A stretch of 64,000 nt of DNA, taken from positions 6,887,730 through 6,951,729 of the forward strand of contig CAIIXF020000007.1 of assembly GCA_903813345.2 (NCBI GenBank), in the 5' to 3' direction. The position numbers and the translations under genes are program-made. A model generated the notes under the pieces. That model was given only the letters and a program-made list of their open reading frames with translations. It searched no databases and was not told the origin of the DNA. Positions 119-55,948 of the stretch are shown here, one piece after another (positions within the stretch are counted from its first letter, which is position 1; each line of letters opens with the position of its first letter). This DNA comes from Owenia fusiformis (Eukaryota; Annelida; Polychaeta; Sabellida; Oweniidae).

Positions 119-218
119 CCCATAGCATGCGGAAGCTTCATATGGATCTATTCCATAATAGTCCATGTCTTTGGCAGTCATTAGGAAATTCATTTCCGCT
201 TTTCCTGGAGAGAACCCC
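119..218 (-). CDS. PTPN4-like: PTPN4-like exon G (residues 200-233)
   Basis: It is 100 nt between TTATAG and GTAAGA. It completes Arg200, then encodes [20 protein letters not shown] and [13 protein letters not shown], the end of lobe F2 and entry to F3, ending at phase 0. The next exon is outside the window; bases 1-118 are intron. Confidence 0.88.
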
Positions 219-3200
219 CTATAATATTTCAAAGTAGACATAAGGTTGAAACATGCAATGTCTGTATGATGGTTGATCCATAATAAGTGGGTATTTTCTC
301 CGGCAGGAATGTCCCTTGTAGCAACTAAAAATACCACCATTTAAAGCGCATCCCTTGTTTATCTCCCAGTCATTCTGCTGCCTGCAGCTATAAATGTTGG
401 TTGTTTCAAAAGATTTATATCTGGAAAGATATTTCTTTGATATTGGTCTAGAATATAATATACTTATTAGACGCTTTAATTGAAATTGATAGCACAATGC
501 TTATCACTTTGCTTCTGAGCCTCTATATTTTAAAGGGTAAATAGCCTAGTATTACCCCACGAGGTCATATCTGAACATTTATCTGTTAATCAATACACTC
601 AGTGAATGATCTTAAAATCATCATCACCTTAATATACAGTAAAACCTCTCTACATTGAATACTGCTGGAAAAGTGTTCATATTGTAATCATCAAAACATG
701 TGATCCATAAAAAGTGTTCACATTGTAGCAAATTCTTTTTAAAGAGGTTTTCACATTATGCAATTTCACATATACAGGTTTTACTGTATTGGGATAATAA
801 TCTTAAAGTGTTCATAAATACAAAATTTACTATGTTAAGCTATTTTCATGTGTTCACAAACACAGGTTACTGTATTAATATACAGGTGTTCATGTAAAAA
901 GGTTTTACTGTACTGAGCTACATAAAGGTGTCCACATACACAAGTTTTACTTTATTGAGCTACATAAAGGTGTCCACATACACCAGTTTTACTTTATTGA
1001 GCTACATAAAGGTGTCCACATACACCAGTTTTACTTTATTGATCTACATACCGGTGCTGCCGATGCAACATAGCTACATCCTTCTCGAAAGCTTCAGTTT
1101 GACCTGGAATGAAGCGGAACTCTGAGAGATATCCTCCTGTGTGGTCTTCAGCACTGAAGTCACCTAATTCAGCTGGAAATAAAAAATAATATTGAGCTTC
1201 TTCAAAAGGTACAATTTTGAGCTCAATTTTGCAAATATAATTAAACTTCATTGATGCATTCCAATTTTAGATGCCGTTGAAAGAAATAATTGTATCCATG
1301 TTTGAATTAATTTTTGAAAAAATAATTGGGTTAGCCTTTTTTATATTTTCAACGTAGAAGTATATAAGCACTCCTTCCAGATATTTGCAAGTTAAAATTA
1401 GTGAATTCTGCAATTGAAAAGGGCCAATTCCACAAAATACATCATGAGGAATTCATCAAAATTTAAGATATGGCAAATCTGTGTCCTAAAGACATGTTGC
1501 CCAGTTCAACCCAACCTCTTTAAAGGACAAATTATGAAAATAACGAGACTGGCCAGGCAGAAATCATAATATCAATAGTGCATTAAGACAGTTAACATAT
1601 TTTAACATGTACAAATTAGAAATTAAGCCGTACTTTATGGTCCATTATAATGTAAATAGACCTGTTTAAAACACCTATTTAAAGAAAATATTAATGACAA
1701 ATTGACTAAAAATGACAGCTCATACCAATAGTACATGAAGACATAACAGCATTTTTTCATATAAAATTAAGACTCTAAACTGTACCTTAAAAAGATTAAT
1801 TAAGCTCTAAGCAACCTCTAATAAGGAAAAATGGCACTTATTAAGGAGTAACTTCATCTTAACTAGACAGGTAATTTGACACTTCATTAGATCAGCTCAC
1901 AGCATCAAAATAATTCCATTTTTCAAGATTAGGGCAGCGATTGCAACCTGTTCAAGAAAATAAAGGGTTTACACATTGAACAGCGATTCAACCATCGTCA
2001 AATAAAACCAATCAAATTGCTTATTTTCATAATCTCTTTTTTTCTAGAGAAGCAAAATGATCTCTCCCTAATTAAATCCATGACATGAGTGACATTCTAA
2101 GCAGAATCAACTAACAAATATATTGATCTAGAAGAACAATTAACTAAATTTTATCTATAATTGAATTCTAATTATCAAGGCCAGTCATCTCTAAGTCTAA
2201 ATACTGTATCCAAATACAAACTATTTTGAGCTGATAACTTCCAATTTATTGTATTAACTTATTATGAACTGCTAAATTCAAATATATCCAATATTCTAGG
2301 TGTTACCCATTGTTACCCCCTCCCTTATTTGTCTTTAAAACACATCTTTTTGGAAATTGACAAAAACAAAATCATTTTAATTTTTCTTTATTTACAGTAG
2401 AGGGATCTTATTGATTAATTGTTGATATGAAATATGAATTACACTCAGTCATAAGATCATCATCATTAGATCAATTCATTAAAAAAAAGAATTGCAATAA
2501 AAATGACACAAAATATTACTTTAAAAATATTTTGTTCAATTTCAATAATAATCATATGCAGTGTCTTCATTGGATACTATATTGGAAGACTCAAAAGTGT
2601 TGGATCCTTTACATCAGGAAGTTATCAATTTTGGATTCCCTCAGCAGAAAGAACTATAAAGAATCAACAAATAGCACGAAACATAAACAAGGTTATCATA
2701 TTTACCTATAGAAGAAGTGGGTCTAGTTTTTTTGCTGAATTGTTCAACCAGAACCCAGATGTTTTTTATATGTTTGAGCCCCTGAAGGCCATTGAAGATA
2801 ATTATGACATTAAAGACCTCCCACTCATCGGACCTCCCTTCTTACGACAAATCATGGATTGTCATTTTCATAACAACACATTTCTATCACAAGTAAAAAC
2901 CATGAAATATTGGAACTGGAAACAGATTTTTAGGAATATGAACCAACTAGAAGAAGTTCAAAATAAATGCAAACATGCAAAAATAGTTGTTGCAAAGATA
3001 ATCCGCATGGAAAATATTGCTCAAATTATTCCGTATTTTGGAAAAGATACCGCGATTATTTTCTTGACGAGAGACCCACGAGCTATCCTCAACTCCCGAA
3101 ACCATGAGAATGACAAATATATGAAGATGTCATTGGATAAAAAAAGACAAGACATGCTCAGTGTATGTCAGAACACCCTAATGAACATAAATATAATACA

Positions 3201-6200
3201 GAACCTAAACACTGCCATAGAAACAATGCCTTTAGTAAAACAAGTTCTGTTTAAAGATTTTGCATATAATACTCTTAACAACACAAAGTTGTTATACAAA
3301 GCCCTAAAGATAGCTTTCAATGAACAGATTAAGCAATGGATAGAAATCAACACTATTAAGGATTCAAACTATATATGGAACCACACGCAATTCATCCACA
3401 ATACCTATAAAGTGGAGAACCCACTTAAATTCAGCTGAACTTAACATGATTCAAAATATTACAGACTGTGCTAAAGTAATCAGTTTGCTTGGCTTTGCAG
3501 TGATATAACAACAGTACTAAAAGGTATTGTAAACTGTGCACAAATGACTGGCAAATTGGACATCTGCTGAAAAATGATCATGATGTAACCACAGTCAGCG
3601 TTATAAAAATGTTTCTAATCATCTCTTTCCAATTAAGTAACTGTGGAGTGAGGACTGACTTTAATTGCAAAACGCCTATTAGGCGGCTGTAGAGAGATAA
3701 CTGACTTACATTGCACTGCAAAACTTGCCTATAAGGCGGCTGTAGAGAGATAACTGACTTTAATTGCACTGCAAAACTTGCCTATAAGGCGGCTGTAGAG
3801 AGATAACTGACTTACATTGCACTGCAAAACTTGCCAATAAGGCGGCTGTAGAGAGGGGATTGACTTACATTGCACTGCAAAACTTGCCAATAAGGCGGCT
3901 GTAGAGAGATGATTGACTTACATTGCATTGCAAAACTTGCCAATAAGGCAGCTGTAAAGATAGGATTGGCTTACATTGCACCGCAAAACTTGCCAATAAT
4001 GTGGCTGTAGAGAGGGGATTGACTTACATTGCATTGCAAAACTTGCCAATAAGGCAGCTGTAAAGATAGGATTGGCTTACATTGCACCGCAAAACTTGCC
4101 AATAATGTGGCTGTAGAGAGATGATTGACTTACATTGCATTGCAAAACTTGCCAATAAGGCAGCTGTAAAGATAGGATTGGCTTATATTGCACCGCAAAA
4201 CTTCCCAATAATGTGGCTGTAGAGAGGGGATTGACATACATTGCACCACAAAACATGCCAATAATGTGGCTGTAGAGAGATGATTGACTTACATTGCATT
4301 GCAAAACTTGCCAATAAGGCGGCTGTAGAGAGAAGACTGACTTACATTGCACCACAAAACATGCCAATAATGTGGCTGTAGAGAGATGAGTGACTTACAT
4401 TGCATTTCAAAACTTGCCAATAATGTGGCTGTAGAGAGGGGATTGACTTACATTGCACTGCAAAACTTGCCAATAAGGCGGCTGTAGAGGGGGGACACAC
4501 GAGTCTCGACTCAAGAATGTCCTTCTTCAGCTGTAGAAAGAAGTGGTACCTACAAGAAGAAACAACAAAACAGAAATTACACCAGTGATTACACCACTAT
4601 CAAATAAACTAGACAGTGTGAAAAATACATTTGGTTTTAGTGAATTTAATGATAGTTAGTCAAAATTAAGCGTTTTGTGTCAAATTCAGACTTCCTAGAC
4701 TTTGACTCACAAAATGGTCAGCTCCGACATTGCTGACCACGTTCCTTCCACCCAAACCACATTCTCACAATGCGAATATCTTTAGTTGCAAACCACCAGT
4801 TCCTCTCTCCTAGACTCATTCCTCCACATCGCTGACCATACAGTGCTGTGAAAATGTGATTCGGTTGGAAGGAACATGGTCAGCGAGGTCAAAACTTCAA
4901 AGCACATTTTCCTATTATTGTTGTATTGTATTGTATTATGTTAATATGCCATAATGGCTACTAGGACAGTGTCTGTAATTCTGCTCATTTGTCAACCCAA
5001 AGTGCCAACGATGACCTTCTTTTTTAAGATATTGGTATCAAATGTGAAAAAAATTGGCTCACTTAAAAGTAATCAGCACGAATCCATAATGAAAAAAATT
5101 TCACCCTGCATTTCAAGTTTTGTCATTTTCAGAAAATAAGGTTTATATCAAAGACTATGTAAGTTACATCTAACATTACAGATTAATAGACTAGACTAGA
5201 CTAAACTTGATTTATGTCATTAATATATTCAAAATTCAAAAAGTGATGTCAGATTTAAAGTTTACATGTAAGATTGCATCGAGGAATGTGTTTTAAAAAT
5301 CATTTATCATTTTACTTTACTTTAAAAATGTGACTTCTAGATCGGTGAGTTTCCCAATAGACCCCATGTTATAAAACCTGAAAAGTGAAACATCTTTTCT
5401 TTTGTTTGACAGATATTTTCTCGTTCCGCACATATTTTCATTTGTACTATTATATCAGACACATCTGGGTTATATGAAAACTGAACTACTAAAACTGATG
5501 AATATTCAAGTTCAAGGGAACTTTCTACTATCTCTGCAATGTTATCTGACCAAAATTAGCCACCTGGTGGTGTAACTTCCTCCTGACATCTGGGTTATTA
5601 AAGGGTTTATGAAACATTCTGAGGTAATTCAGGATCTGAAGTACAGACTGACCCTTTAAGAATCAATAATTCTGGCTTGATAGCATAAATGATTTAAAAT
5701 GACAAGTTACAGAGTTCTCCGAGGATTTTTTCTCGTGTAGGTTCAAAACTCTTATTTTTACAATTCAGACGAAAATTGGTCAAACTGTGACGATCTTTCA
5801 TGATCATTCTCATTATCAAGTGGGTGCAAATGGATTTTCAGGTGTGTGTCAGCCTGTTTTTAAAATATCAGGTGGGTGCTGCGCCCACTTGCTTTAATGC
5901 TGGGGAGATCACTGAGTTTGCTTAATCTGAACATTTGCATTCAAAATCCAACTTAAGATATTGAACAAATATTTCACTCTATTGAGGTGAATACCTGTAC
6001 ATCTTTCACAAGTGATATTCCACGAAGCCCGAAGGGCAAGTGGAATATCACCTTGTGAAAGTGCTACAGGTATTCACCGAAAATAGAGTGAAATATTTGT
6101 TTTATTATATCACTGTCTAGCTAAACATCCCTAATATTATTAAGTCATAGGTTAACATTGAAATACATTGAATCTACTCGGTTCGTCTGCCATTTTGACT

Positions 6201-9200
6201 TACACTGAACTAAATCATTTACACTGAACGAAAACAAATTCTTTGAAAATTCCCGGGAGCGTGAGATATCGCTAGATATCTCACGGTTGTCTTATCTGAT
6301 TAGCATTGCCATTGAATATCGCCAGATATCCCACGACATGTGACCCGGTTTTGACCAATCATACTGTCGCTAGCTAGATAGTGATATAATAAATATTATT
6401 ATTCTATGCAATCAAGAACAAAGGAGGAGCATTAATACAGTATGATGATGATTATTTTAAAAACCCTCTTCTGACATTAGTATAAATATGTAAATAAATT
6501 TCTATATTACAAATTGTTATGGAATTCCCTTTGCAGGATGCACTTACTGGAAACTCATTTGTCTTAACTGATGTTGCCATAGTAACGTTATTTAAAGATA
6601 ATTAAAATTCAAGAATTGTGATCCAAATTATTTTATAATAGCCTCGATTATACAGAAATGAATGGGGAGAAATTATAGGCTTAAAAATATATTTATTACT
6701 TTAAACTTACCTTGTATATTCTTCGGCTAATTTACTAGGATCAGATACATAAAACTTGACACGGAACCACAAGGTATATGGTGGACCCACTGAAACAAGA
6801 CACATAAACTGATGACACAGAAATATTAGGTGTCTACATACTCTAGATAGAAAACATTGGGAATAATCTGGACACATGTATCATTTATATTGCAAATTGA
6901 ACACTACAGTGAGACTACATCATGCTTATAAAGCAAAGATGCAATATCAAAACTAAAAAACTTTTTTTCTGAAAAACATTATCATTACTTGGAAATAACG
7001 GGAGATAAAGTAGAGATATATAATATTTCAAATACTAGAATAGTAGATTTTACAATATAAAAGTTAAACCTAATCATATGCCTCATGAGGGAAAAAACAT
7101 ATACATGATAATGTACATTACATGTACAGGGTGATCATTAAGTTCTGGGAATTGGTCTGCCATTTCAAGATTTCTCAACCATTTGAGTTGAAATTTTCAG
7201 CAGGTGTACATTGTATAATTCTGAATTGACAAGCAATGTTTCATATACATATCACATCTACAATTTATTTTATTGTAATTACAAAAAAAGTAAAAGTGGT
7301 AAGTGGGTCAGCAAATTTTGACTGATGTTAATCTGAAAATTTCCTGCCAAAACATATTCAACTTGCCCAGATGGTTGCTTCAAACTACTTGTACTAGAGG
7401 CAGAACAGTACTCTTGAAGTCATTTATTCAGAAGTATTCTTCATTGCTGAGAGGATCATTTCATTTATAATTGTTTCCATTAGCCTGGACGCACGTGCGT
7501 TGTTGACAAACTTAGTCCATAAAGTTGTGTTCCAGTCCTCCCTTTGGTATCCTTTGAAGATTTGCCCAAGCCGTTGAAATCAGTCCCTCATCGGAATCAA
7601 ACTTATGACCTCTCATATAATGCTTTAGCACCCAAAATGTAGTGAAGCCTAATGGTGCTCCATGTGGTGAATATTGTCTGGTGAATATGGGGCAGTAATA
7701 ACTTGTGTGAACCCCAATTCTTCAAGAGTAGTATGGGCAGCTTGAGTTGTGGGAAGGAGCATAGTCATAATGGAAGATAACTCCCCGCTATTTTGAGTCA
7801 CGATTGTGACTTTGAGATGCTGATGAATGATACAAAAATAGAGCAAAGTACACTCTTATATAACAATACAGATGTTACTTTAGAAACTAAAGTAAGAAGT
7901 ATTTGAAAATATGAAAAATATGAAAAATCACAGAAATATGTCCACCAAATAAGTATTTATTAATCATACTTTTGGATCAAGCAAAATTTGAATTTATTTT
8001 TATTTTACTTGACCCGCTACGCCATTTGTCATGTTGCTATAGTAACAATAATTATCCATTGTGACATCAGATGACAATGAGACTGTTTTATCCAACCCAA
8101 AATTACATTCCCCATTTACCTTGAAAATTTCAAGTAAATTGGTTTAAAAATAATGAAATGACAGATAAATTCCCAGAACTTAGTGATCACCCTGTACATG
8201 TACCATTATGTGACTTACATCTAATTTGTTTCTTCACTGTTTTAAGAGGGTCCAGCCACCTCTGAAAACAAAAAGGGTAAAAGGTTCATTATGTAAACAA
8301 AAATGCAAATGCAACCATAAATATAGCAGTTTCATCCTGTCAAATATGAATGGTGCAAGATGATGAGCCTCCTGTCCGCCATGGTCCATGTTACCTTTGG
8401 TGATCACAAATAAGGTTTATTTGAAAGACTGGATACTATGTACTTAAGTGGCACATATCATTGTGACATACCATTGATCAAACAAGTATGACAAAATGTC
8501 ACCACCTAGTTGCTCACAATATTACTAGTTCAACCTTAAGTCAGATATGAATTTCTGAGAACTTGTAGATTTTATTGCCATTAATCATTATAAGTACATA
8601 TCATACATGAGGGACCCAATCGCCAGTGGCATTATACTTGTAGATGATTTTGAAAATAAAAATTGGTCAACTTGAAGCAAGTTGAAAAATGCCTTTTTTA
8701 CCCTGAGAAGGTCATTCAAGGTGAAATCTCAGATCTAAAGTCAGATTTGAACTTCTGAGAACTTGTAGATGATTTTGAATAAAAAATTGGTCAATTTGAA
8801 GCAAAGTTGAAAAAAGACCCTTTTGACCTCGAGAAGGTCACTGAAACTTACCAAAGATTCAGAGGTTGGCTGAGCTGCCTCTGAATACTGGAGTCCAAAG
8901 TAATCTTTTTCTATCAACTCCAGATGATCGAACACTTTGTCAAGCAATGCCTGGGCCTTGGACCGCTTCTGAAATATGAAAATTGAAAAGTGAAGACCAA
9001 ATTCTACAATAGGAAGGTTTTTGTAATACGTTATCAAATGATGTCTTGAACATGTGAAATGGAAATGTAAACATTGAAAGGCCATCAAATGTGAAGGCAA
9101 TAGGAAAGTTAAACTTTGAAATGCTATTATCAAGCAATACCTGCACCTTGGACGGCTTCTAAAACGTGAACATTGAAAGGAAATTCTGCAATGTTTTTCA

Positions 9201-11136
9201 AGCAATGCCCTGAACATGTAAAATGGTAATATAAACATTGAAGGGCCTTCAAATATGAAGGTTAAATTCTGCAATAGGGAGGTTAAATTTGCAATAGGGA
9301 AGTAAAATTCTGCAATAGGGAGGTTAAATTTGCAATATGGAGGTTAAATTCTGCAATAGGGAGGTTAAATTTGCAATGCTTTATCAAGCCATGCCTGGGC
9401 CTTGGACCACTTCTAAAATGTAAACATTGAAAGGCCTTGAAAAGTAAAGACTCTAATTAAAACATCCAACCACTCGATTGCTGATTTGGTAATATCTGTG
9501 AGTGGAAGATTCATGAAATATGAAGATTGAAGAGGTTTTCTACTGAAATATGAAAAATTAAAAGATTTCAAATTAACCCTGGATACTTCCCTTTTTCTCA
9601 GGAAAATAAATATGTCACCCTTGATATGATTTGAACCTTGGGAATGAATACTAATTGAAAATTCATATGACTAATCACCGCATATCCAGACAGAGTATAA
9701 TCTTATTTCGTGATCCATAATTATGGATAATTTATAGGACTATCATTTCCCAAGGGTGCGATTCTCTTTCATAACTCAATTGCCCAATCAAAGCATAGAT
9801 AAATTGTCACAATAAATCGCAATACTAGGAACAGTATTGATCAGAAATTATTACGGCTCAATATCAAAAATGTAATACTCATAGAAGTGAAGCTGTAATT
9901 GAGTTTTCAAATAGATTGGTATTCATCAAAGTTACATGACATGGTCAAATCCGCATAAATAAACCCTCAATGACCATCTATTTTTTACTTTTGCAACATT
10001 CTCTAAGATTTGAGTCACAGTACAAGTACAGTAAAACCTGTACATCAAAACACCTCTCTAATCTGAACACTTTTGCTACCATTTTTATTTACTTATCTAT
10101 CCCCATATAAGAAAACTTGATATGTGAACACCTCCAATAGTGGCTCGTCCTAATGATGTCTGAATTAGACAGGTCTGCTGTACTTCAAATATCGATAGAA
10201 CTCTTTTAGACAATCGTACATCGTGATTTTTATCAGGGCAATGATTACTTGCTTCCAGGCTGATCGAATGTAAATCCAATTGCAAGAGTTCTCATTCAAA
10301 ATAGAATATGGTACTTCCCGCATTTCCATTTTCTTTGCCAAATCTATACTTTACAAGACAATTACTCTTTTTATTGTAATAACATTATATCTTTCAGACC
10401 TGAGTATTCATATGGCTTTTATTCAATATTGATCAAACCTGCAATGCATCTGCTTCAAAATTATCTCTCCTGTTATTAAAATGGAAGAGACTGTTTCTCT
10501 TGCTTAACTTTACTTTAACTATGGTAACTCAAGCTTTTTTGGTTTACGAGAAGGTATCTGATTTTATATTATATACAGGTATTTCAAACAAATCTGACTT
10601 CAAACATAAAGACATAGACAAATTGGTAACGCAATTTAGTACAGTTTCCATATAAAAATATGTTGGTCATCATGCATGCCATTCATCTAATATCATTAAT
10701 AGCTGCATTGATAAAAATATCAAAACCAAAGGAAAAGGGGTAAAAAAACTGTATCTAAACTAGAACAGAAACCGTTCATACATTGCTTCGTATTTAAGCA
10801 TTCAAGTGTAATCTAAAAGTTTTTCTGATCATGTATTTATTATTTGGTGCCAACTCTCTGTGAAACATTTAATGACTTTCTTGCAGTTTTCTCTAACAAA
10901 ACAAAACAATTCATTTCATTTCATTATTTATAAGGAAGAGAAAACAATATTTGCAAAGTTAGATTATAATACATAAAGACTTACATCTATGTCGAATGTT
11001 TCCTGTGTGTCGTCAAGGAAACAAATGATGCAGCGAAGAGACCGATTGGTAGAGTTTGGTTCTCGTGCCAGTTCTGAGGCCCTAACATTGTATGTCCCAC
11101 TGGAGGCCCCCAGCTTCATGGACATCCTGTCCCCCT
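119..11136 (-). CDS. PTPN4-like: PTPN3/PTPN4-like FERM-PDZ tyrosine phosphatase, 5' part of gene (7 exons)
   Basis: Seven exons on the minus strand join as 11125-10985, 8968-8852, 8261-8219, 6789-6711, 4549-4452, 1172-1052 and 218-119. They give 699 nt, or 233 codons, without a stop, and every junction is GT/AG with matching phase. The product starts [20 protein letters not shown], and this [10 protein letters not shown] start is characteristic of PTPN4-type phosphatases. The FERM domain follows: [77 protein letters not shown] and [13 protein letters not shown]. Family knowledge: FERM targets such enzymes to the membrane cortex, and PDZ and catalytic PTP domains lie further on, here beyond the left edge. 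The acceptor at 11138-11137 implies at least one untranslated 5' exon to the right, which I could not find. PTPN3 and PTPN4 are not separable from this fragment. Introns hold a sulfotransferase gene, a mariner relic and several tandem arrays. Confidence 0.9.
637..786. mobile_element. Miniature inverted-repeat element, CAGTAAAACCTGT family
   Basis: It is 150 bp with ends CAGTAAAACCT and AGGTTTTACTG flanked by TA on both sides. The TA duplication suggests Tc1/mariner mobilisation. No coding capacity. It continues at the right into related 40-bp units. Confidence 0.7.
788..1050. repeat. Tandem array, about 42-bp unit, next to exon F donor
   Basis: Three nearly identical 42-bp units (GAGCTACATAAAGGTG then TCCACATACACCAGTTTTAC and TTTATT) run from about 914 to 1040, preceded by older degenerate units from about 788. 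The units resemble the end sequence of the CAGTAAAACCTGT element. A partial fourth unit (GATCTACATACCGGTG) runs into exon F across its donor. Confidence 0.8.
1052..1172 (-). CDS. PTPN4-like: PTPN4-like exon F (residues 160-199)
   Basis: It is 121 nt between TTTCCAG and GTATGT. It encodes [31 protein letters not shown] and VAMLHRQH, the lobe F2 region of FERM phosphatases. The donor lies at the edge of a 42-bp tandem array. Confidence 0.9.
1253..2426. other. Intron sequence without recognised features
   Basis: AT-rich intron of the phosphatase gene between exon F and the sulfotransferase ORF. I see no ORF, RNA gene or clear repeat. A T-rich stretch precedes the sulfotransferase, but no convincing promoter element could be assigned. 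Confidence 0.6.
2503..3438 (+). CDS. Carbohydrate sulfotransferase-like protein (Golgi type II), C-terminus out of frame
   Basis: A single-exon ORF of 311 codons nested in the phosphatase intron on the opposite strand. A short N-terminal cytoplasmic tail is followed by a hydrophobic anchor near residues 8-27 ([20 protein letters not shown]), as in Golgi membrane sulfotransferases. The 5' PAPS-binding motif is [20 protein letters not shown] followed by FYMFEPL; the 3' motif is [13 protein letters not shown]. Both match the CHST family acting on sugar hydroxyls of glycans; the acceptor cannot be predicted. The frame ends early with VENPLKFS. Another frame from about 3412 to 3508 reads WRTHL, then [20 protein letters not shown], the usual CHST C-terminus. 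A single-base indel near 3405-3412 has therefore displaced the tail: a recent pseudogene, a null allele or a base-call error. Single-exon structure is common in this family, so retrocopy origin is not required. Confidence 0.85.
   Translation: MTQNITLKIFCSISIIIICSVFIGYYIGRLKSVGSFTSGSYQFWIPSAERTIKNQQIARNINKVIIFTYRRSGSSFFAELFNQNPDVFYMFEPLKAIEDNYDIKDLPLIGPPFLRQIMDCHFHNNTFLSQVKTMKYWNWKQIFRNMNQLEEVQNKCKHAKIVVAKIIRMENIAQIIPYFGKDTAIIFLTRDPRAILNSRNHENDKYMKMSLDKKRQDMLSVCQNTLMNINIIQNLNTAIETMPLVKQVLFKDFAYNTLNNTKLLYKALKIAFNEQIKQWIEINTIKDSNYIWNHTQFIHNTYKVENPLKFS
3439..3508 (+). pseudogene. Displaced C-terminal segment of the sulfotransferase
   Basis: After the ORF's stop, a different frame is open to a TAA at 3506-3508. 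It encodes a Cys- and Gly-containing tail ([16 protein letters not shown]) like the ordinary end of the family. The frame overlaps the annotated ORF from about 3412. This is the sequence evidence for the frameshift. Confidence 0.6.
3650..4490. repeat. 53-bp minisatellite, 16 copies, derived from exon E and its splice donor
   Basis: Counted by the CTGTAG/CTGTAA mark near 3682, 3737, 3790 and so on to 4483, there are 16 units at a very regular 53-bp spacing. Read on the minus strand, a unit is an acceptor-like CTCTCTACAG, a 30-nt block coding LLASFAVQ in the phosphatase phase, then usually GTAAG. The highest-coordinate unit is the true end of exon E. Three low-coordinate units carry an in-frame stop; the other copies are open. 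Some units alternate between two subtypes (GGCGGCTGTAGAG and GGCAGCTGTAAAG), suggesting higher-order duplication. Confidence 0.95.
4452..4549 (-). CDS. PTPN4-like: PTPN4-like exon E (residues 127-159), founder of the adjacent 53-bp array
   Basis: It is 98 nt, beginning after TTCTTGTAG and ending at GTAAGT. It completes Arg127, then encodes [18 protein letters not shown] and [14 protein letters not shown], closely matching FERM lobe F2 of PTPN4. It ends with one nucleotide that joins CT of exon F to give Ser. Its last 42 nt or so and the donor are the first unit of the 16-copy array on its downstream side, so this is the only copy with the full 5' half and true acceptor. Confidence 0.9.
4561..5960. 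other. Intron sequence without recognised features
   Basis: Intron between exons D and E. An imperfect inverted pair (GCTGACCACGTTCCTTCCA near 4731 and GGAAGGAACATGGTCAGC near 4864) suggests a small degenerate inverted-repeat element. No coding signal was seen. Confidence 0.45.
5966..6397. mobile_element. Composite hairpin plus inverted-repeat element A
   Basis: A near-perfect hairpin has arms 5966-6023 and 6039-6099 around a loop GAAGCCCGAAGGGCA. It abuts a body bounded by TTTATTATATCACTGTCTAG (from about 6100) and TAGCTAGATAGTGATATAAT (from 6371), which are inverted copies. The body holds further GATATC-rich inverted pairs. It is non-coding and likely non-autonomous. The same layout with different sequence occurs at 49698-50312. 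Confidence 0.75.
6711..6789 (-). CDS. PTPN4-like: PTPN4-like exon D (residues 101-126)
   Basis: It is 79 nt between TTTCAG and GTAAGT. It completes a split Leu codon, then encodes [20 protein letters not shown] and AEEYT, the strand opening FERM lobe F2. It ends with two nucleotides of the next codon. Confidence 0.9.
7127..8194 (-). mobile_element. Mariner-type transposon, decayed
   Basis: It is 1068 bp, bounded by CAGGGTGATCATTAAGTTCT and the inverted copy ending AGTGATCACCCTG. TA flanks both ends (7125-7126 and 8195-8196). The terminal repeats remain similar for about 26 bp and weaker to about 40. The minus strand holds transposase remnants: HTTLEELGF and APYSPD around 7670-7740 (the last catalytic Asp region of mariner), then [11 protein letters not shown] near 7590-7615. 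Frames are broken by indels and the length is short of a full mariner, so it cannot encode a transposase. Confidence 0.85.
7649..7846 (-). pseudogene. Mariner transposase fragment
   Basis: A 65-codon open stretch inside the mariner element. It contains [20 protein letters not shown], matching the mariner catalytic-domain region that ends in the third catalytic aspartate. The preceding Asp-Asn motif is not readable in this frame. Upstream and downstream parts lie in other frames. Confidence 0.75.
8219..8261 (-). CDS. PTPN4-like: PTPN4-like exon C (residues 87-100)
   Basis: This 43-nt exon encodes [14 protein letters not shown] plus one nucleotide. It is preceded by TTTTCAG and followed by GTAAGT. 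The RWLDP..K...KQ motif is conserved in this position of the FERM domain. It ends only 25 bp from the right end of the mariner relic in the next intron. Confidence 0.88.
8852..8968 (-). CDS. PTPN4-like: PTPN4-like exon B (residues 48-86)
   Basis: It has 39 codons between a TTTCAG acceptor and a GTAAG donor and encodes [20 protein letters not shown] then KDYFGLQY, the F1 signature of FERM proteins. Both ends are phase 0. Degenerate copies of its acceptor and first 30 or so nucleotides recur upstream in the intron near 9131-9165 and 9382-9420. Confidence 0.9.
8930..9450. repeat. Degenerate tandem repeat containing copies of the exon B edge
   Basis: Units of about 190-250 bp repeat CAAGCAATGCCTGGGCCTTG (8941 onward) as variants at about 9131 and 9382. 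The first instance is the true acceptor edge of exon B. Other shared segments include ATGTAAACATTGAAAGGCC. Between 9255 and 9375 a nested short repeat (GGAGGTTAAATTTGCAATA, about 20-22 bp) is present several times. Confidence 0.8.
10029..10180. mobile_element. Miniature element, CAGTAAAACCTGT family
   Basis: It is 152 bp, bounded by CAGTAAAACCTGTAC and AGGTCTGCTG with TA on both sides. The right end has diverged. Non-coding. Confidence 0.6.
10985..11136 (-). CDS. PTPN4-like: PTPN4-like exon A (start codon, residues 1-47)
   Basis: The ATG is at 11125-11123, followed by 47 codons ending in QETFDID at phase 0 and a GTAAG donor (GT at 10984-10983). An AG at 11138-11137 after TTTGT places 11 nt of 5' UTR in this exon. 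A second in-frame ATG lies two codons later. The first was chosen because its length before [10 protein letters not shown] fits the family. It encodes the start of FERM lobe F1. Confidence 0.88.
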
Positions 11137-17300: not shown

Positions 17301-17403
17301 CAAGAGCACTCTTTTGTGTTGTCTCTTTCCTCAATGCTTTGTCATAGATAATGAAAGTTTATTGCTAATACGAGAGTGTGATACAAAATGAATCCATCTT
17401 GAA

Positions 17404-17543
17404 AAGGGTAAGTCTACAGAGACATTTGCACTCTGAGGAAAACAGACAATACTGCTGCACTTTTATGGCTGTAAAGGGTAAGTCTACAGTGATATTTGCA
17501 CTCTGAGGAAAACAGACAATACTGCTGCACTTTTATGGCTGTC
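17404..17543. repeat. 70-bp tandem duplication
   Basis: Two nearly identical 70-bp copies starting AAGGGTAAGTCTACAG and ending CACTTTTATGGCTGT. They differ at only a few bases, so the duplication is young. Function unknown. Confidence 0.9.
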
Positions 17544-25437: not shown

Positions 25438-26202
25438 GGGTAGCCTCTTTAAAAGGTAGGTAAAGCAGAATCATACATATCATGTCTAAAAGTCATGTTA
25501 CACTGACTACCAGAAATTCGCTGCTAATAAATGTACTTACCGGTTCCTACTGCTCAATCTAAGCCATGAATGCTGGATGTTCTACTCTGGAAAAACAAAA
25601 AAAATATATAAAAAATGTGTATTTTACTACATGTAGAGGTTATATTGACAAATATGCCAGATGTGAAAAAAGCTTGTGTCAAGCACCTGTGTGGCAACTT
25701 TGACACATTTTAACATAAGGTTGGAGAAAATAAGCATTAATGAAAGAAACAGAGGTTTGATACAAGACTTATTTCAAATTTGAGTACTTCTATCATATTA
25801 GGCATTAACAGGACAAAATGTCAGCCAGGTTACTATTCACAATAACATAAGTGTTACAATATGTTTCAGGTGTCAAACATTGATACCAAACTCTAGCCAC
25901 AAAAATGATTGGTTTTACAGAGAGCATCAGTGTGACATACTAGTAAATGTGCGGGCAGACCTGAGGAGAAGGAAATACATCAGATGAAGATAGGTCCATC
26001 ATTTATGAATTCTAGGTTATTTTACCTCTTGTTAGACCTTGTTGAAGATGTTGAGGAACATGTCGATGCCAACCGTAGTATGACCCCACTAAAACCACTA
26101 GAGACACACAATCGTAGTAACATTTACCCCACTATCTACATATTCAATACACAAATTATTGAGTAAACTGTTAAATGTCCTTTTTCTGATATCAATACAT
26201 AT

Positions 26203-27642
26203 ATGAACACATTAGAAAAGATGGCGGCCGATACAAATCAGTGGTCAGAGCTCCTGCCAATGTTCGACGATATACCGGACGATATAAGCAGAATACTTCA
26301 AAAGGCAACCGTGGAACCTAGGAATACTATCCTAGAAGAGCTAGGTAGCATTGCTGAGGAGAATACACTCCGTAGAACACGGGATATCATATTTGAACTT
26401 TCGACACGTAAACTACAAAAAGTGAACAAAATCTCTAATGTCGGAGGATTGAAACTGAAGGCAAGAAAAGCGGAAAGACCTACAGGATATTGCAAGGATA
26501 TATACGATATGTTTGTTTACATCGCTGATCTGGATAACACGTTTCCGAGAGGGGTACTAGGTAGCTCATCGGTGAGTAACATTGATAATATGATATCGTC
26601 TGAAACCATGAACAATGCTCCGATGCGTATGTCTGCATCCGTTACGCCCAATGACGCCTCGTCTACGACACAGGCGTGCAACACGTACACTGAAACTGAA
26701 TGGGATGGGAAGGCTTTATTTACGAAACTCGTACTGATGCAGCATCAGTTGCAAGAACTGTCTTTTGAAAATACAAAAATAAAGGGCGACATTAAAAAAC
26801 TCCAGGGACAAGTCTGTAAATGTACATGTACGTGTTCCAAGTCCACTACGAACGAGGTCAGGTTGACAAAGACTAAGGAGCCTAATCCACCTAATACCAC
26901 GTCTAGCAGCAAAGCGACTACTCATGTTTCTAACACTGATACCCACTGTGTGAGTGGTGCTAATAACGACAAATATAATGGGACTAATAAACCGATGCAA
27001 AACACAAACACGGCGTTTAGGTCTAACTCACTACCAGATGTAATGAGCTCCGTCCAGCCAAAGCCCTTCATGCACTTAGTCACAGCAACCAATACAAAAG
27101 ATGTAAACAAACCCCACATATTGAACCATAACAACGAAGGAACACGCATTGAGGCCCGTGCCTCCACTCAACCGCCTCCCCCACCTACCCTTTCATACTC
27201 TCAGGTGACAAAGACATCTAGGCCTGTCGAGCGACACGATATGAGACCAACTCGTGATGTTCCTAGCAGACAGTCAAGCCTCAAGGGCATCAAACACGAA
27301 CGGTATCGTTGGTTGTACCTCGAAAACATTGCACGATCTGAGTACGACGACGACGACGCAACCATACATCAGATCCAGTCACATGCGCATATTACTGGAA
27401 TCCGAATTATGAAACTTAATGTGATACATAACCGATTTGCAATCGACAGAGTCGGGTGCAAAATTGCAGTCTCGGAGTCATCGGCGGATAAGGCTCTGGA
27501 ACCAGTATCTTGGCCATACCCGGTGACATGCAGGGAATGGGAGCAACGTCCTCGACGAAACGATATACCAAGATACCGATCCCAGCGACGCAACAACTAT
27601 TATGATAATGACAATTATGGCGACGACAACGACAACTATTAG
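26203..27642 (+). CDS. Non-LTR retrotransposon ORF1 (nucleic-acid-binding protein)
   Basis: An intact 479-residue ORF, five bases upstream of ORF2. It has an N-terminal helical part (to about residue 110), a short predicted coiled coil (LVLMQHQLQELSFENTKIKG, about 176-200), a Cys cluster (CKCTCTCS) that is not a CCHC knuckle, a Ser/Thr/Asn-rich linker with PPPPPT, and a conserved-looking C-terminal domain. The last begins RYRWLYLENIARSEYDDDD and includes GIRIMKLNVIHNRFAID and WPYPVTCREWEQRPR. This block resembles the RRM-like or C-terminal domain of LINE ORF1 proteins, which bind the element's RNA in cytoplasmic particles. The tail is Asp/Asn/Tyr-rich, from GAC/AAC simple sequence. The ATG at 26203 is the first in frame; another lies at 26221. 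Confidence 0.85.
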   Translation: MNTLEKMAADTNQWSELLPMFDDIPDDISRILQKATVEPRNTILEELGSIAEENTLRRTRDIIFELSTRKLQKVNKISNVGGLKLKARKAERPTGYCKDIYDMFVYIADLDNTFPRGVLGSSSVSNIDNMISSETMNNAPMRMSASVTPNDASSTTQACNTYTETEWDGKALFTKLVLMQHQLQELSFENTKIKGDIKKLQGQVCKCTCTCSKSTTNEVRLTKTKEPNPPNTTSSSKATTHVSNTDTHCVSGANNDKYNGTNKPMQNTNTAFRSNSLPDVMSSVQPKPFMHLVTATNTKDVNKPHILNHNNEGTRIEARASTQPPPPPTLSYSQVTKTSRPVERHDMRPTRDVPSRQSSLKGIKHERYRWLYLENIARSEYDDDDATIHQIQSHAHITGIRIMKLNVIHNRFAIDRVGCKIAVSESSADKALEPVSWPYPVTCREWEQRPRRNDIPRYRSQRRNNYYDNDNYGDDNDNY

Positions 27643-27647
27643 TCATC

Positions 27648-30600
27648 ATGTTATTCACAAATATCATACTCGTTTGTCTATATGTTATCGCAGTAACAGT
27701 GTTAATACCGCATAACATGATGAATCTTAGGCTTGCACAATGGAACCTAAATGGTGCAAACACGGCAAAACATGCACTTAAAGATCTATTAAATGAAAAT
27801 GACATAGTTGCAGTTAGTGAGCATATGTTATACGATTGCAATATCAAACAATTAAATGTCAATGAAAATGATTTTTGCATGCATGCAATTAGTAGCAAGC
27901 ACATAGATAACGCTGACTGTGGTCTAAAGTTTGGTTCAGGTGGTGTCGCAATGTTTTGGCGTAAAACCTTAGCAAAACAGGTATACCCTCTAAAAGCCTT
28001 ATCAAATGATAGAATGATTTGTGTTAAATTATGTATGCATGATAATTCTCGCCCATTGTATATCTTCTCAGTATATCTCCCACAACAGCAGTGTAAAAAG
28101 GACAATTTCGAGGACGTGCTACTTGAGCTCGAAAATAATGTTAATCAGGTATCATGTGAAGGGGATGTTGTACTATTGGGGGACATGAATGCCCATCTGC
28201 CGTATAATATCCATAACGGTAGTCGTAGTTGGGGCAGCGGTACCCCTAATGGTAGAATATTTCAAGAGTTTATTTTACGCAACGGTTTAATTGTAGCAGA
28301 CCTACTAGAATTTTGCGACGGCCCTAACTACACGTTTGAATCAGCCTGTGGTCACAAATCCTACATAGATCATGTTATTGTATCCAACACACTAGTGGCT
28401 CATATTTATAAATGCACTATTCTAAATACTTGTGCAAATTACGGCGCATCTTCAGATCACCTCCCTGTTATTACCGTCCTCAAAATAGAAAAAAGTACAT
28501 GTGACACAGAAGTGGAATCTTCAGTAAAATCTTCATGTTTCAAACGTGTAGCGTGGGACAAAGCCACGTGGGAAATGAAAAATAATTATGCTGATATGTG
28601 TAGCTCAATGGTTCAATACGTGCAGAGTGAGTTTCAAAAGAAAGGTGATAAGTTATCAAATGCCGAAATAGATCAGTATTTAAATGTAATAATATCAATT
28701 CTACATCAAGCAGCCGAAGTAATATTTCCAATTAAACAATTTAAGAAGCATCAAAAGCCATTCTGGGCCCCACACCTAACAGTTTTGGTAAAAGAGCGTA
28801 ATAGATTATGGCATCAGTGGCGCAATACGGGTAAACCAAGGTCGGGTGACATTTTTCAACAATACAAACTCGCTAAAAAGGCGTTCTCAAAAGCATATTA
28901 CATGGCAGAAATGGAATACGAGCGAGCTGAAATGGCTAAATTATACGAATCAGAGTGTGTTGACCAACGATTTTTTTGGCACCTACTTCGACGTAGTAGA
29001 GGGCAACAGTCAAGGCCTAGTTCATCAGTTCGCAATAAAGATGGCATCATCGTCACTGAAGCACAACAGGTTCGCGAAGTTTGGCGCAATCATTTCAAAA
29101 CATTGGCTTCTCCCGGGGATGACCCCCTATTTGATGATAAATTTAAGGATCAAGTTGATCGAGAAGTCAATGACTTACTTCACACTTCTCATCTTAATAA
29201 TAATGATTTTCTCGAAAATGACATTTCAATGGAGGAGATAAGTTCAGCATTATCAAAAATGAAGCCTGGAAAAGCCAGTGGGCCGGACGGAATAACGGTC
29301 GAGCATATACGTTTTGCCGGGGGTCCAATTCTGGAGATTCTGATATGTCTATTTCAAAGTGTGATAAATAACGAGTATACACCCTTAACCTTTCGTACCG
29401 GAACTCTCATCCCCCTCTTAAAAGGGGGTGTGCGGGACGTACTTGACACTAACCATCACAGGGGTATAACACTCATGTCAGTCATACGGAAATTATACGA
29501 CAAAATCATATTAGGAAGATACAGTTGGCGTTTAAAGTCGATTATACATCCTCTACAAGGAGGTTGTCTTGATGGGTGCTCCTCGCTACACTCATCACTA
29601 CTTCTGCATGAGACAATTGGATTTAATACCCATCATGACAGTACCGTTCACGTGGTGTTATTAGACATAAAATCTGCCTTTGATACGTGCTGGATAAACG
29701 GCCTGTTTTACAAACTGTACCATAAGGCCGGGATTAAAGGGAAACTCTGGCGATTGTTATATGACTCGTACAAGAACTTTGAATGTAATATCCTGGTAGC
29801 AGGGGGAGTATCCGAACCCTTCCCGGTGCTCCAAGGAGTATTTCAAGGAGCCGTCAGCAGTATGCTGCTCTATCAATTTTACATAAGTGACTTGTTGGAC
29901 GACCTTGAAAAATTAAATCTTGGAGCAAAAACCATGGGAATCAACACAGGCTCTATAGCATACGCAGATGACATTGCTCTCATTGCTATCTTCCCTAATG
30001 CAATGAACACTATGCTGCAATTAGCTTATGCCCACAGCAACAAATGGCGATACACCTTACACCCTGGGAAATGTGTAGCCCTGACCTATGGAAAAAATAC
30101 TGAGGTCCCACAGTTTAGGTTAGGCACGGGCGAAATACCAAATGCCAAATCTGCAAAGCATGTCGGAATTCCACTGTCGACAGATGGAGTATTTAGGGAC
30201 CATGTTAAAGACGCTATATCAAGCGGAAAGCGAAAACTATATTCACTATTCGGATTAGGTCATAGAACTGGTGGCCTTACCCCACTCGTAGCATCAAAAC
30301 TGTATAATAGCTTTAGCGTGCCAAAAATGCTCTATGGTGACCAGATAATTAATTATAAGCCTGAAGATCTTGAAACACTCGAAGTGGCACAGCGCCAAAT
30401 TGGGAGAAGATTACAAAGTTTTCCTAAATCCGCCAGCAACCCCTCGTCAACCATGACACTGGGATGGAACACAATGAAGCGGAGAATTGACTATGATATG
30501 CTACTTATGTTATTTGGAATGCTTATTTTACCACTTTCGAATATTTATAAACGTTTATTAATGTTAAGACTCATGAATATAACACTAGGATTGGCATCAT

Positions 30601-31229
30601 GGGATTCCCCAATTTCCAGAATGTGGTCTTGTGTTGTAAAATATGACCTCACAGAGAGCTTACTAGAAATGATACGTACAGCACAATTTCCTTCTAAACT
30701 TCATTGGAAGAGACTGATTAAAAACACAATCGGTAATTACCAGAGAAACGGTTACATGGCAACATGTTCGTTATATAGACGCCATGATATATGTGTTAAC
30801 ATTTCCGATGTAAATATACGTGTCGGATCCCTTGGATCTATGAAACCCTGCGTCTGGTGGATCTTGGCAAGGAAAAAACCACTATATACCCCGCAGTGTA
30901 AAACAATGATGAGACTAGCCACTGATTGTCACGATCTACGCGTAAAAAATTCAGGTGTAAATAGTATTTGTATTGTCTGTAACAGGTTCGAAACAGAAAC
31001 AATTGATCACTTTATCATGAGATGTCCAAAATGGCAAGAACATCGTAACCAAATAGGTTTAATTACAAGAAAATACGGTGCTTTTAAAGAACTAGATAAG
31101 ATATTTGCATATCCCGAGTGTGAAATTGATGACGATGATATGATAAGTATTGCATGTATAGTGCATAAAATGACTATTGTTAGATCAAACATTCTGAAAG
31201 AATACGTTGGACAGTTGATTATTACATAA
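27648..31229 (+). CDS. Non-LTR retrotransposon ORF2 (endonuclease and reverse transcriptase)
   Basis: An intact 1193-residue ORF. The N-terminus is an AP-type endonuclease: WNLNGAN, AVSEHML, VVLLGDMNAHLP, YIDHVIVSNTL and SSDHLPVI mark the metal- and phosphate-binding residues. The central reverse transcriptase has KPGKASGPDGITVEHIRFAG, LLDIKSAFDTCW, PVLQGVFQGAVSS and the catalytic SIAYADDIALIA. The C-terminus has a Cys/His motif, CIVCNRFETETIDHFIMRC, and there is no RNase H domain. It copies its own RNA at nicked genomic DNA. A hydrophobic N-terminal leader precedes MMNLRLAQWN, so translation may start at about 27717 rather than 27648. Domain order fits the CR1/L2/Jockey group broadly; I do not assign a clade. 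All catalytic motifs are intact. Confidence 0.95.
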   Translation: MLFTNIILVCLYVIAVTVLIPHNMMNLRLAQWNLNGANTAKHALKDLLNENDIVAVSEHMLYDCNIKQLNVNENDFCMHAISSKHIDNADCGLKFGSGGVAMFWRKTLAKQVYPLKALSNDRMICVKLCMHDNSRPLYIFSVYLPQQQCKKDNFEDVLLELENNVNQVSCEGDVVLLGDMNAHLPYNIHNGSRSWGSGTPNGRIFQEFILRNGLIVADLLEFCDGPNYTFESACGHKSYIDHVIVSNTLVAHIYKCTILNTCANYGASSDHLPVITVLKIEKSTCDTEVESSVKSSCFKRVAWDKATWEMKNNYADMCSSMVQYVQSEFQKKGDKLSNAEIDQYLNVIISILHQAAEVIFPIKQFKKHQKPFWAPHLTVLVKERNRLWHQWRNTGKPRSGDIFQQYKLAKKAFSKAYYMAEMEYERAEMAKLYESECVDQRFFWHLLRRSRGQQSRPSSSVRNKDGIIVTEAQQVREVWRNHFKTLASPGDDPLFDDKFKDQVDREVNDLLHTSHLNNNDFLENDISMEEISSALSKMKPGKASGPDGITVEHIRFAGGPILEILICLFQSVINNEYTPLTFRTGTLIPLLKGGVRDVLDTNHHRGITLMSVIRKLYDKIILGRYSWRLKSIIHPLQGGCLDGCSSLHSSLLLHETIGFNTHHDSTVHVVLLDIKSAFDTCWINGLFYKLYHKAGIKGKLWRLLYDSYKNFECNILVAGGVSEPFPVLQGVFQGAVSSMLLYQFYISDLLDDLEKLNLGAKTMGINTGSIAYADDIALIAIFPNAMNTMLQLAYAHSNKWRYTLHPGKCVALTYGKNTEVPQFRLGTGEIPNAKSAKHVGIPLSTDGVFRDHVKDAISSGKRKLYSLFGLGHRTGGLTPLVASKLYNSFSVPKMLYGDQIINYKPEDLETLEVAQRQIGRRLQSFPKSASNPSSTMTLGWNTMKRRIDYDMLLMLFGMLILPLSNIYKRLLMLRLMNITLGLASWDSPISRMWSCVVKYDLTESLLEMIRTAQFPSKLHWKRLIKNTIGNYQRNGYMATCSLYRRHDICVNISDVNIRVGSLGSMKPCVWWILARKKPLYTPQCKTMMRLATDCHDLRVKNSGVNSICIVCNRFETETIDHFIMRCPKWQEHRNQIGLITRKYGAFKELDKIFAYPECEIDDDDMISIACIVHKMTIVRSNILKEYVGQLIIT

Positions 31230-44624: not shown

Positions 44625-47425
44625 TCAGAATATTTCTTTGGGTTCCACTTTAACATCATGGACCTCTTGTTTAATTTCATTCACAGGAGGATCTCCTTCA
44701 TCACTCGTACTGCTGTCGTCCTCATTGTATGTTACATAGGTGGCGCCATAATCCTTCGAAACCAAGACAGCAGTCTCTGGATCTTCAGTTGGATGTGTCC
44801 GTCTAGAATGCTGGCAGATTCCTTTAGGACGGCCCGAGTAGGATTTATTGCAATGAAGACACTTGTATATACGTTGATAGTTGTGTAGCATATAGTGTTC
44901 ATTTACTTTACTTTTCCTTAGAGTTGAGAACTCACATCCACCGAAGTCACAAAATGTCAGTTTCTTGTCTGCGGCTGGCGATTTAGCTTTTGGGGACGAG
45001 GCTGTAGCTTTGGGGGATGAGGCCGCAGCTCTGGGAGATAGGGCCACAGGTCTGGGTGATGAGGCTGGGGTCTTGGGTTTGAGAGATGAGAATGCCGAAG
45101 TTGATAAAAGGCTTTGCACATATGCTAAGTCTTCTCCCTGTTTGGAATTCTCCGTGCGAAGAATAAGTTCTGGTTTAAAAGGCTCGGGGTGATAAACAGT
45201 AGGACTATCAGGAAGTGATTGGATTGCTTCACCATCATATTTGTCCTTTAGGCTTTGTTCTTTGTTGGGGTCCATAAGATTTGATGCTTTTAGGCTTACC
45301 TTGGGGATGTTAGTACTGTCATCCTGGGCGTGACTGCCATGATTGGCTTCAGGAGTCTGGGAACCCGATGCCTTCTGGGTAAAGGTGTTCACTCTATGAG
45401 TCCAGTCATGTGAGAACCATTGATAGTGAGATTCGCGATATTTCCCCATATAGTTACTCTGCTGTCGGATCAATTTAGAGCTACGAACTTTTTGATGTTT
45501 TGTAGATGCATGATCTAATGCTTCATCCTCTTTATCGAACACAAGATTACAGTGACGGCATTTGAACAATGACGTGTTGTGTGTATCTTTCATCATTCTT
45601 AAATGGAGGTACATCTGTGGGGACGAATCGGTAGAGTACTCACAGATGTTACAAGTGTAGCGAGGAATCGAGTGCACCTTTTGTAAGTGAAAATGAAGCA
45701 TATCTTTGTTGTCCGGAATGGATTTTTCAGACTCCGGAGAAGTCTTAACAGGGGTGGATGACAAAAATCCACATAGATTGCACTTCGATAAAAACACATA
45801 TTCTTTCCAGAAATCTGTCCCTTTGTCAGATAATTTGAAAATTGTGTCAAAATGTCGAGAATGGAGATCTTCAATTTGTACATCAACGTGTTCTGTCACA
45901 TTATGTTCCACTATGATGTGATTCATGATGAATGTGTCGGAGGCAGATTGGCGGCCGCACAATTTGCACTGGTAATGTAATACATTATGCTCCTCACGGA
46001 TGTGTTGGTATATCGACATCTGCTCAGGTTGACTTGTGTCATTTCCACACATAAAGTCACACAGCTGACAAGCATACATTGGGACGTCTAAAACGACATC
46101 TTTATATATAATCAGATCATCAATATCAAATGTGCGTGGGCTGTCACGCTCTCTCAAGTCATGTCTCTTCTCCTTACATTTTCTATCTTTCTTCCTTCTA
46201 TGGTGGTGATGCTTCTCTTTCTTTGGGGATTTTGGTGACTTTGGCGTCCCCGTTGGTGACATTGTAATGCACTGTGGGTTGAGTTTGATCCGAAGTGGAG
46301 GTACTTTCGGTTCATCTTGACTGTGATTCTCAGCGTTGTTCTTTACTTCCATCTCAACTTCATCATTTGATATTTCTTCTTTAATAACCAAATCATTGTC
46401 TCTTTCATCATTTTCACCATTATTAGGACTGTCTATACTGTTTGTGTCAATCTGCATTCCATATCCCATCAACATTAGATCCTTGTCATTTTCAATCTTG
46501 ATAGGTATGTCTGATGTAGGCTTAGTATAGAAGGACGTGGAATCCATGCTACGCTCTGAATCATTAGCGGAGTCGTTAATACTTTCCAATGGCGATTCTA
46601 CAGTACCCACGGCATTTCTCGACCTGGACCTCCCAGGATTCAATTGGAGCTTTTTACCATCTTCCGGATCTCCAACCGTCATGAATGTTGAATGGAGATT
46701 GATTAAACGACCAGAACTGTTATCATCCCGAACTCCTCTATATAAGTGGCCATCTGGTTGTAGCTCGTGTTCTTGAAATATGTGATTACGAACTTCTTTT
46801 TTAGTTGGGAAGAGTCCCTTACATATACTACAGCGAATTGAAAATCGACTGTTATGCTCCTTAATGATATGTTGTTTGATTTCCAAATCCAAATCATCGG
46901 AAAAGTCACAGAGGCTGCATTTAAAGCGAGGCTGACCATGGTCCAAAGATAGATGTTTGTGAATACGAAGCCTCGGAAACAACTTTTTGCAAAGCGTACA
47001 CCCAAATAACTGCTTGGAATTCTTCTGGCCATATTTTGAAAAATTAATTGTGGGAAACGAGCGGATGTCTAATTTAGAAGAACCTCCGTCAGAATTTGAT
47101 GGCTTTAGAGTAGGGCTCACAGTATTAAGTACTTCATTTGGAGATACCATGGCAACTGGAGTCGAAACCCCAGACATGGTACTCTCTGTCACAATTAAAG
47201 ATGGTGTTGTCAAAATAGGTGGCGCCGTTAGAATTGCACCTATAGATGGTGCTGTTGGAATAGATGGCATGGAGAGGACAGGAACTGGTTTCTTCTCAGT
47301 TTCTGGCTCATAAACTTTCATCTCAGATCGTATTATTTTGTCAATATCGATAACACGGCTGTTGGTTTCCTTCGGAACAGTGGGGCACATGGGTGAAGAC
47401 ATTAGCATGGATCTGATCAGTTCAT
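44625..47425 (-). CDS. Zinc-finger protein exon 4 (C2H2 fingers, stop)
   Basis: It follows TTTGCAG and runs 2801 nt to the stop. Finger cores in order are FGCTLCKKLF, FKCSLCDFSD, RCSICKGLF, YACQLCDFMC, YQCKLCGRQS, KCNLCGFLSS, YTCNICEYST, FKCRHCNLVF, FCDFGGCEFS and YKCLHCNKSY, mostly with paired His 3-5 residues apart. Spacing is irregular and linkers are not of the TGEKP type, so this is not a KRAB-like array. Ser-Pro repeats (ASSPKATASSPKAKSP) precede the last pair. Confidence 0.9.
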
Positions 47426-54975: not shown

Positions 54976-55948
54976 CTGAAAATATATCAAACACAAAATT
55001 ATACTTCAAATTGAAAATCTTCAGCAGAAAGTACTGTACATCAAAAAGCTTCCGCAAGGATGTAAAGACAAAACAAATCCCTGCTACATGCTATTAGGCA
55101 AGCATATAATAATTTCTCAGTAGAACATCATAATGATGATTGGTGACAGTACACGTATTTATGTAATACGTGAAGTACTAATATTACTGCAGCCTCATCT
55201 AATAAGACATTTAATACATGCTCATTCACTAAAGCGGATGTGATATAAGAAATCCTATCCTTTTAAAAATCTCATAAAAAGCTAGCTCATTTTCTAATGT
55301 CCTCCCTTTGGTAGGTGTTATGACAATTCCAATTTTCTAATGCTTCAAATATTAGTTTCTTCTTGAAATAATTTCAGAGATGTGATATGATTGAGGTATT
55401 ATTTCATGACTAACACACATCTTTTGAATATAATTACTTAAAAGTTTCATGAGGTGATAATTATTTCGCGAGCCTGGCAAAGTAATAAGCAATAAGCAAA
55501 CATCACCTGATACAATCTCAAACATTCAGGATTATAAATTTTCCCAAATTTCCTCCCTGCCTGGGTTATCTACATTTCAATAAAAATCTAAAAACGGTTC
55601 ATATTGAAATTTCTGCTTCAGGCTATGCCATTTTAGTTTTTGGAAGTAATTTAACGGAATTTTCTTAAGGAGTCTCTTGATTCTACCATACCTAAATACA
55701 GTTTCTCGCTACTTTGGCTCCCCTTTGGAAGAACATAGCTTCCATCTATACTCTTCAGGAAGATGTTTTTAAGAATTTGTAGTTAGAAAATCATTTCGAA
55801 TTCAAACTCACCAAAAAGTCATAAAAGCGTTATTTAAAATGCTGACTTATCAGCATATAACTGAAGAACAGTAGATATAGTAAAACCTACAATAATTCAA
55901 ATATAATAATGATAATAAATAAATAATATAATATAATTCAGATAAGAA

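Follow-up and report, generated by a model that had tools for sequence, protein, structure and literature searches.

The window, the whole 64,000-nt stretch of Owenia fusiformis DNA analysed here, contains a coding exon whose end has been copied, together with its splice donor, into an array of 53-bp units in the adjoining intron. Each unit resembles a short exon with splice-like signals of its own, which raises the question of whether the array is a working set of extra exons or an ordinary repeat.

Host gene, array and its growth

When joined, exons E and F (Table 1) encode a 73-residue FERM F2 segment that reads through without a stop. Among the 44 distinct PDB sequences matched by this segment, the best was the tyrosine phosphatase PTPN3 (6t36, E 4.5e-18), with band 4.1 proteins next (E 2.9e-16), and the Pfam match was FERM_M (E 2.4e-15). 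With human PTPN4 as a tblastn query, seven collinear stretches were returned from the minus strand, running from 11095 down to 146, five of them with E ≤ 0.001 and two weak (0.008 and 0.59). By these similarities, the host is a PTPN3/PTPN4-like FERM gene on the minus strand. As the phosphatase domain lies outside the window, the label 'phosphatase' rests on the FERM similarity.

Table 1. Exons of the host gene and units of the 53-bp array (positions in the window)
Feature	Position	Strand	Details
Exon A	10985..11095	-	Protein-match bounds, tblastn E 0.001
Exon B	8879..8980	-	Protein-match bounds, E 1e-05; match extends into intron at 5' end
Exon C, likely	8220..8261	-	Weak match in order, E 0.59
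Exon D	6710..6787	-	Protein-match bounds, E 4e-07
Exon E (FERM F2)	4452..4549	-	Length 98 nt; phase-1 3' end, …CAA T before the junction
Authentic donor of exon E, GTAAGT	4446..4451	-	From the sequence; GT at 4451
Exon F, next exon after E	1052..1172	-	121 nt; in frame with E
Exon G, downstream	146..217	-	Protein-match bounds, E 0.008
Unit 0 of array	4438..4490	-	Last 39 nt of exon E and first 14 nt of intron
Units 1-14	3696..4437	-	53 bp each exactly; 12 distinct sequences
Unit 15	3649..3695	-	Two small deletions leave ~47 bp; exonic block has stop codons; donor GT absent
Possible trace of another, decayed unit	3625..3648	-	Alignment 3651-3625, 18/27 match

TRF reported a 53-bp period at 3666-4489, with 15.6 copies, 86% matches, 0% indels and a score of 1158. 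The whole array extends over approximately 3649-4490 on the minus strand and comprises 16 units, 15 of exactly 53 bp and a shortened 16th (~47 bp). Units are numbered here along the minus strand from 4490, with unit 0 containing the real exon end and units 1-15 downstream of it. In the phase chosen, each is a copy of the last 39 nt of exon E and 14 nt of intron; an earlier sequence-only reading, which had the 3' part of exon E repeated 16 times, donor included, in 53-bp units, is therefore upheld by TRF and by unit-by-unit alignment. The 30-nt exonic block is unchanged from the exon in units 11 and 12, and two pairs of units (6 and 10, 7 and 9) are identical. The units lie head to tail in a single array, fall within the ~10-100 bp size of minisatellite units and include variants set in a higher-order pattern (12 distinct sequences among units 1-14; dimer P 0.0004). 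Because unit 0 runs from the last part of exon E through the donor, the array spans the real exon-intron boundary. At the far end, the alignment listed in Table 1 has nine mismatches over 27 bases and shares a few bases with the end of unit 15; this stretch could be a weak remnant, or possibly a chance alignment.

The exonic block codes for a stretch common to PTPN4, PTPN3 and band 4.1, indicating that the array was copied from the exon and not the reverse. A blastn search of the 64-kb window found no further copies of the unit beyond one 11-base match (E 0.52). As this was the sole other match and the block codes for conserved protein, we rejected the possibility that a dispersed satellite had landed beside the exon. 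An exact 31-base unit pattern had 0 matches in viral contigs and 0 in genome contigs, as expected for collections that are non-eukaryotic.

Units two apart differ at a mean of 4.4 positions, compared with 7.0 in shuffled order (P 0.0004); at lags of 1, 3, 4 and 5 they are no closer than in shuffled order. The resulting 106-bp dimer pattern shows best across units 5-10, with 2-4 differences per 106 positions from one dimer to the next, and alternating dimers of this kind are what unequal exchange would be expected to produce. The copy closest to the exon is unit 11, with a single difference, and unit 1 differs by eight. Thus, the middle of the array appears to have turned over since the first duplications. 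At the start of the copied piece, the exon and the first copy share TCCCC[C/T]CTCTACAG (13/14 bases), which, depending on the original intron sequence, is possibly a duplication junction with short homology.

We infer that a 53-bp piece spanning the donor of exon E (39 nt of exon and 14 nt of intron) was duplicated in tandem, and that repeated slippage or unequal exchange, partly by steps of 106 bp, then brought the array to ~16 units. The copies lie within the E-F intron and would in most cases probably be spliced out with it via the first donor of exon E. Their splice-site look-alikes would have been inherited from the exon, as its donor and a coding run, CCCCTCTACAG, without maintenance by selection.

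Several other features of the window were seen. A second array (42 bp × 3.5, 902-1050) occupies the start of the intron that follows exon F, within ~2 nt of the exon's donor, with decayed copies continuing to ~765-850 and related pieces near 50478-50632. It does not look exon-derived, as it matches the exon only at CACC and its copies lack GT. At 17403-17542 there is a 70-bp direct duplication, the unit of which holds GGTAAGTCTACAG, with donor-like and acceptor-like motifs side by side. The E-F intron also includes, antisense to the host gene, a 322-codon ORF on the plus strand (2470-3435); its sulfotransferase match is barely above the Pfam cut-off (22.3 vs 22). Two overlapping long frames on the plus strand at 26167-31226, the second with endonuclease and reverse transcriptase domains, probably belong to a non-LTR retrotransposon with long open frames. 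Three further long frames (940, 360 and 899 codons), on the minus strand at 44628-55090, had no Pfam match above the cut-off.

Splice-like signals and variation among the units

ACAG is found in all 16 units and GTAAG in 12. GT directly follows the 30-nt block in 13 of the 16, and is absent from units 5, 13 and 15. The exact 9-nt donor of exon E is carried by 10 units counting the exon (9/15 downstream), and the exonic block is stop-free in 13/16, with stops in units 13, 14 and 15. An AG, an open in-phase 30-nt block and a GT occur together in 11 of the 15 downstream units, which are potential ten-residue mini-exons. The gap from a donor to the next AG is 23 nt between neighbouring units and 76 nt between alternate units; 23 nt is too short for an ordinary intron.

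These counts agree with the sequence-only reading on the 13 units that lack a stop, on the gap of about 23 nt and on a 30-nt block in frame with the flanking exons, which adds ten residues when joined between E and F. In its layout of motifs one point is corrected: CTCTCTACAG is not an added acceptor. This motif is a copy of the exon's internal coding stretch CCCCTCTACAG, which encodes P-S-T-A, and the P-S-T-A region is common to protein relatives by position and partly by sequence. As the acceptor-like run and the donor were both inherited from the exon, copying alone suffices to generate sixteen mini-exon look-alikes. Both ends of the block are in phase 1 and the AG lies within parent codons, making an in-frame length of 30 nt a 1-in-3 coincidence, and we therefore rejected this length as evidence of function.

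When donors were scored with an approximate matrix, uncalibrated for this species, those of nine downstream units scored 86, the same as the real donor of exon E, and the six donors of the gene scored 81-99. Ahead of the AG region, 8 or 9 in ten bases are pyrimidines. The consensus unit has a single branch-like motif by the yTnAy rule, which is likewise approximate and uncalibrated for the species. This motif is separated by 45 nt from the next AG, three other AGs intervene, and the CCACATTAT units have lost its pyrimidine.

Within the 30-nt block, the units show ten distinct departures from the exon, three synonymous, six nonsynonymous and one stop, where the fractions expected without selection are 0.25-0.33, 0.63-0.70 and 0.04-0.05, respectively. 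A check for synonymous bias among the units, which had been proposed from the sequence, thus returned no excess. Units 1-14 depart from their consensus by a mean of 8.8%. Among them, the donor GT is intact in 12/14 (null mean 11.6, P 0.56), GTAAGT in 9/14 (8.1 expected), the AG in 14/14 (11.7 expected), and AG and GT jointly in 12/14 (null mean 9.6, P 0.29). The 9-base block that includes the AG is among the least variable (3/126 cells, P 0.08 vs random columns), and six other 9-base windows are equally quiet. Variable columns account for 4/6 of the donor, 9/30 of the exonic block and 5/8 of the linker. As tests of selection these have low power, with just 10 distinct changes and units that are non-independent; at that weak resolution, the variation is compatible with neutrality. 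The sequence-only reading was right to treat functional use as inference, and the units gave no sign of such use, in the form of either a synonymous or a donor-GT excess. A role in RNA structure was also considered and rejected, as the exon and array folded no better than shuffles (z +1.57), 20/20 of which folded at least as well.

Expected splicing

The array is probably a neutral minisatellite that was created when a segment crossing an exon-intron boundary was duplicated in tandem, and that is normally removed with the intron. The intact AG in 14/14 units, the open block in 13/16 and the unchanged exonic 30 nt of units 11 and 12 are points against neutrality. With that many units open and the exon's 9-nt donor in 9/15 downstream, the signals are intact enough for occasional use. 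On balance, the first donor is expected to be used in most splicing events, and leakage to later donors is possible. When later donors were joined to exon F in a model, a premature stop preceded an out-of-frame exon F in all 15 products (12 of them from units with a GT). Leakage would be self-limiting because such products carry stops.

The later donors might instead act as decoys, in which case some transcripts would have exon E lengthened by a multiple of 53 nt, and degradation of the stop-bearing product would slightly lower or tune the output of the gene. The downstream copies of the exon's 9-nt donor, which by the approximate matrix score within the range of the gene's own donors, are consistent with this, as is the stop ahead of exon F in 15/15 modelled extensions. 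However, the real donor precedes all the others, exon E has an ordinary length, and the donors are conserved no better than the rest of the unit. We consider regulation of this kind unlikely. It is very improbable that the array acts as a working bank of in-frame mini-exons, from which one unit at a time, or several that are not neighbours (alternate units, for example), would be spliced as 30-nt exons. If it were, the F2 lobe of the phosphatase would gain at least one ten-residue repeat, the repeats would be of several sequence types, and copy number would differ between individuals. The 11 downstream units with AG, open block and GT, and the pyrimidines ahead of the AG region, are what such a bank would need, but the acceptor-like run is plain coding sequence of the exon, the branch-like motif identified by the yTnAy rule is distant, separated from the AG by others and incomplete in the CCACATTAT units, and there is no synonymous bias. 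The insertion site in FERM F2 is presumably a helix, and an insert there would probably harm the fold. Splicing out of a multi-copy tandem repeat with cryptic sites does have a precedent in fission yeast (PMC3629103).

An assembly error that accounts for part of the array or of its copy number is very unlikely. The identity of unit 6 with 10 and of 7 with 9 leaves the mid-array copy number open to assembler mistakes, but 12 distinct sequences among units 1-14 and a decayed far end are unlike a simple copying artefact. Overall, the array looks like an ordinary repeat and not like a working set of extra exons. With RNA, the neutral minisatellite favoured here would provide a natural test of how the first is chosen among ten donors with the same nine bases, spaced at 53 nt or multiples of 53 nt.

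Comparable repeats at exon-intron boundaries

In the open-licence literature, we found no minisatellite linked to PTPN4 and no exon-derived intronic minisatellite with splicing. PMC12783039 and PMC4039745 were set aside as precedents, as the minisatellites in the relevant parts of their text are intronic and not exon-derived.

Internal tandem repeats at exon-intron boundaries, averaging 30 bp and 4 copies, have been described in human segmental duplications, where they can create alternative splicing and novel introns via activated cryptic sites (PMC2812944). Like the Owenia array, they have minisatellite-sized units that cross the boundary. They differ in having transcript evidence and in varying between paralogues, whereas the Owenia array is a single locus with 16 copies of a 53-bp unit. 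A title cited in PMC2572611 refers to a minisatellite that supplies multiple donor sites. There, as here, each unit supplies a donor; by that title, the donors function in the transcript, and the Owenia units also carry an acceptor-like AG.

In potato, an intron was created when a segment spanning one boundary was duplicated in tandem (PMC4974935). The duplicated segment again crosses a single boundary, with real and cryptic exonic splice signals adjoining. In that case one duplication inherited the acceptor side, a cryptic donor was activated and the new intron is spliced, whereas in Owenia the donor side was inherited, an exonic AG is the possible acceptor and there are ~16 copies. We do not class the Owenia array as an intron gain. 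In the fission yeast genes SPOG_01682 and SOCG_00815, 24-nt tandem repeats with cryptic splice sites became introns (PMC3629103). These share with the Owenia array several tandem exonic units with potential splice sites and an intron spanning units, but they lie in coding sequence and spliced ESTs exist. A general model for such an origin of introns has been reviewed (PMC3443670). Tandem repeats at exon boundaries are thus already known, and the Owenia array is a tidy further case, with more copies and with both splice signals in each unit.
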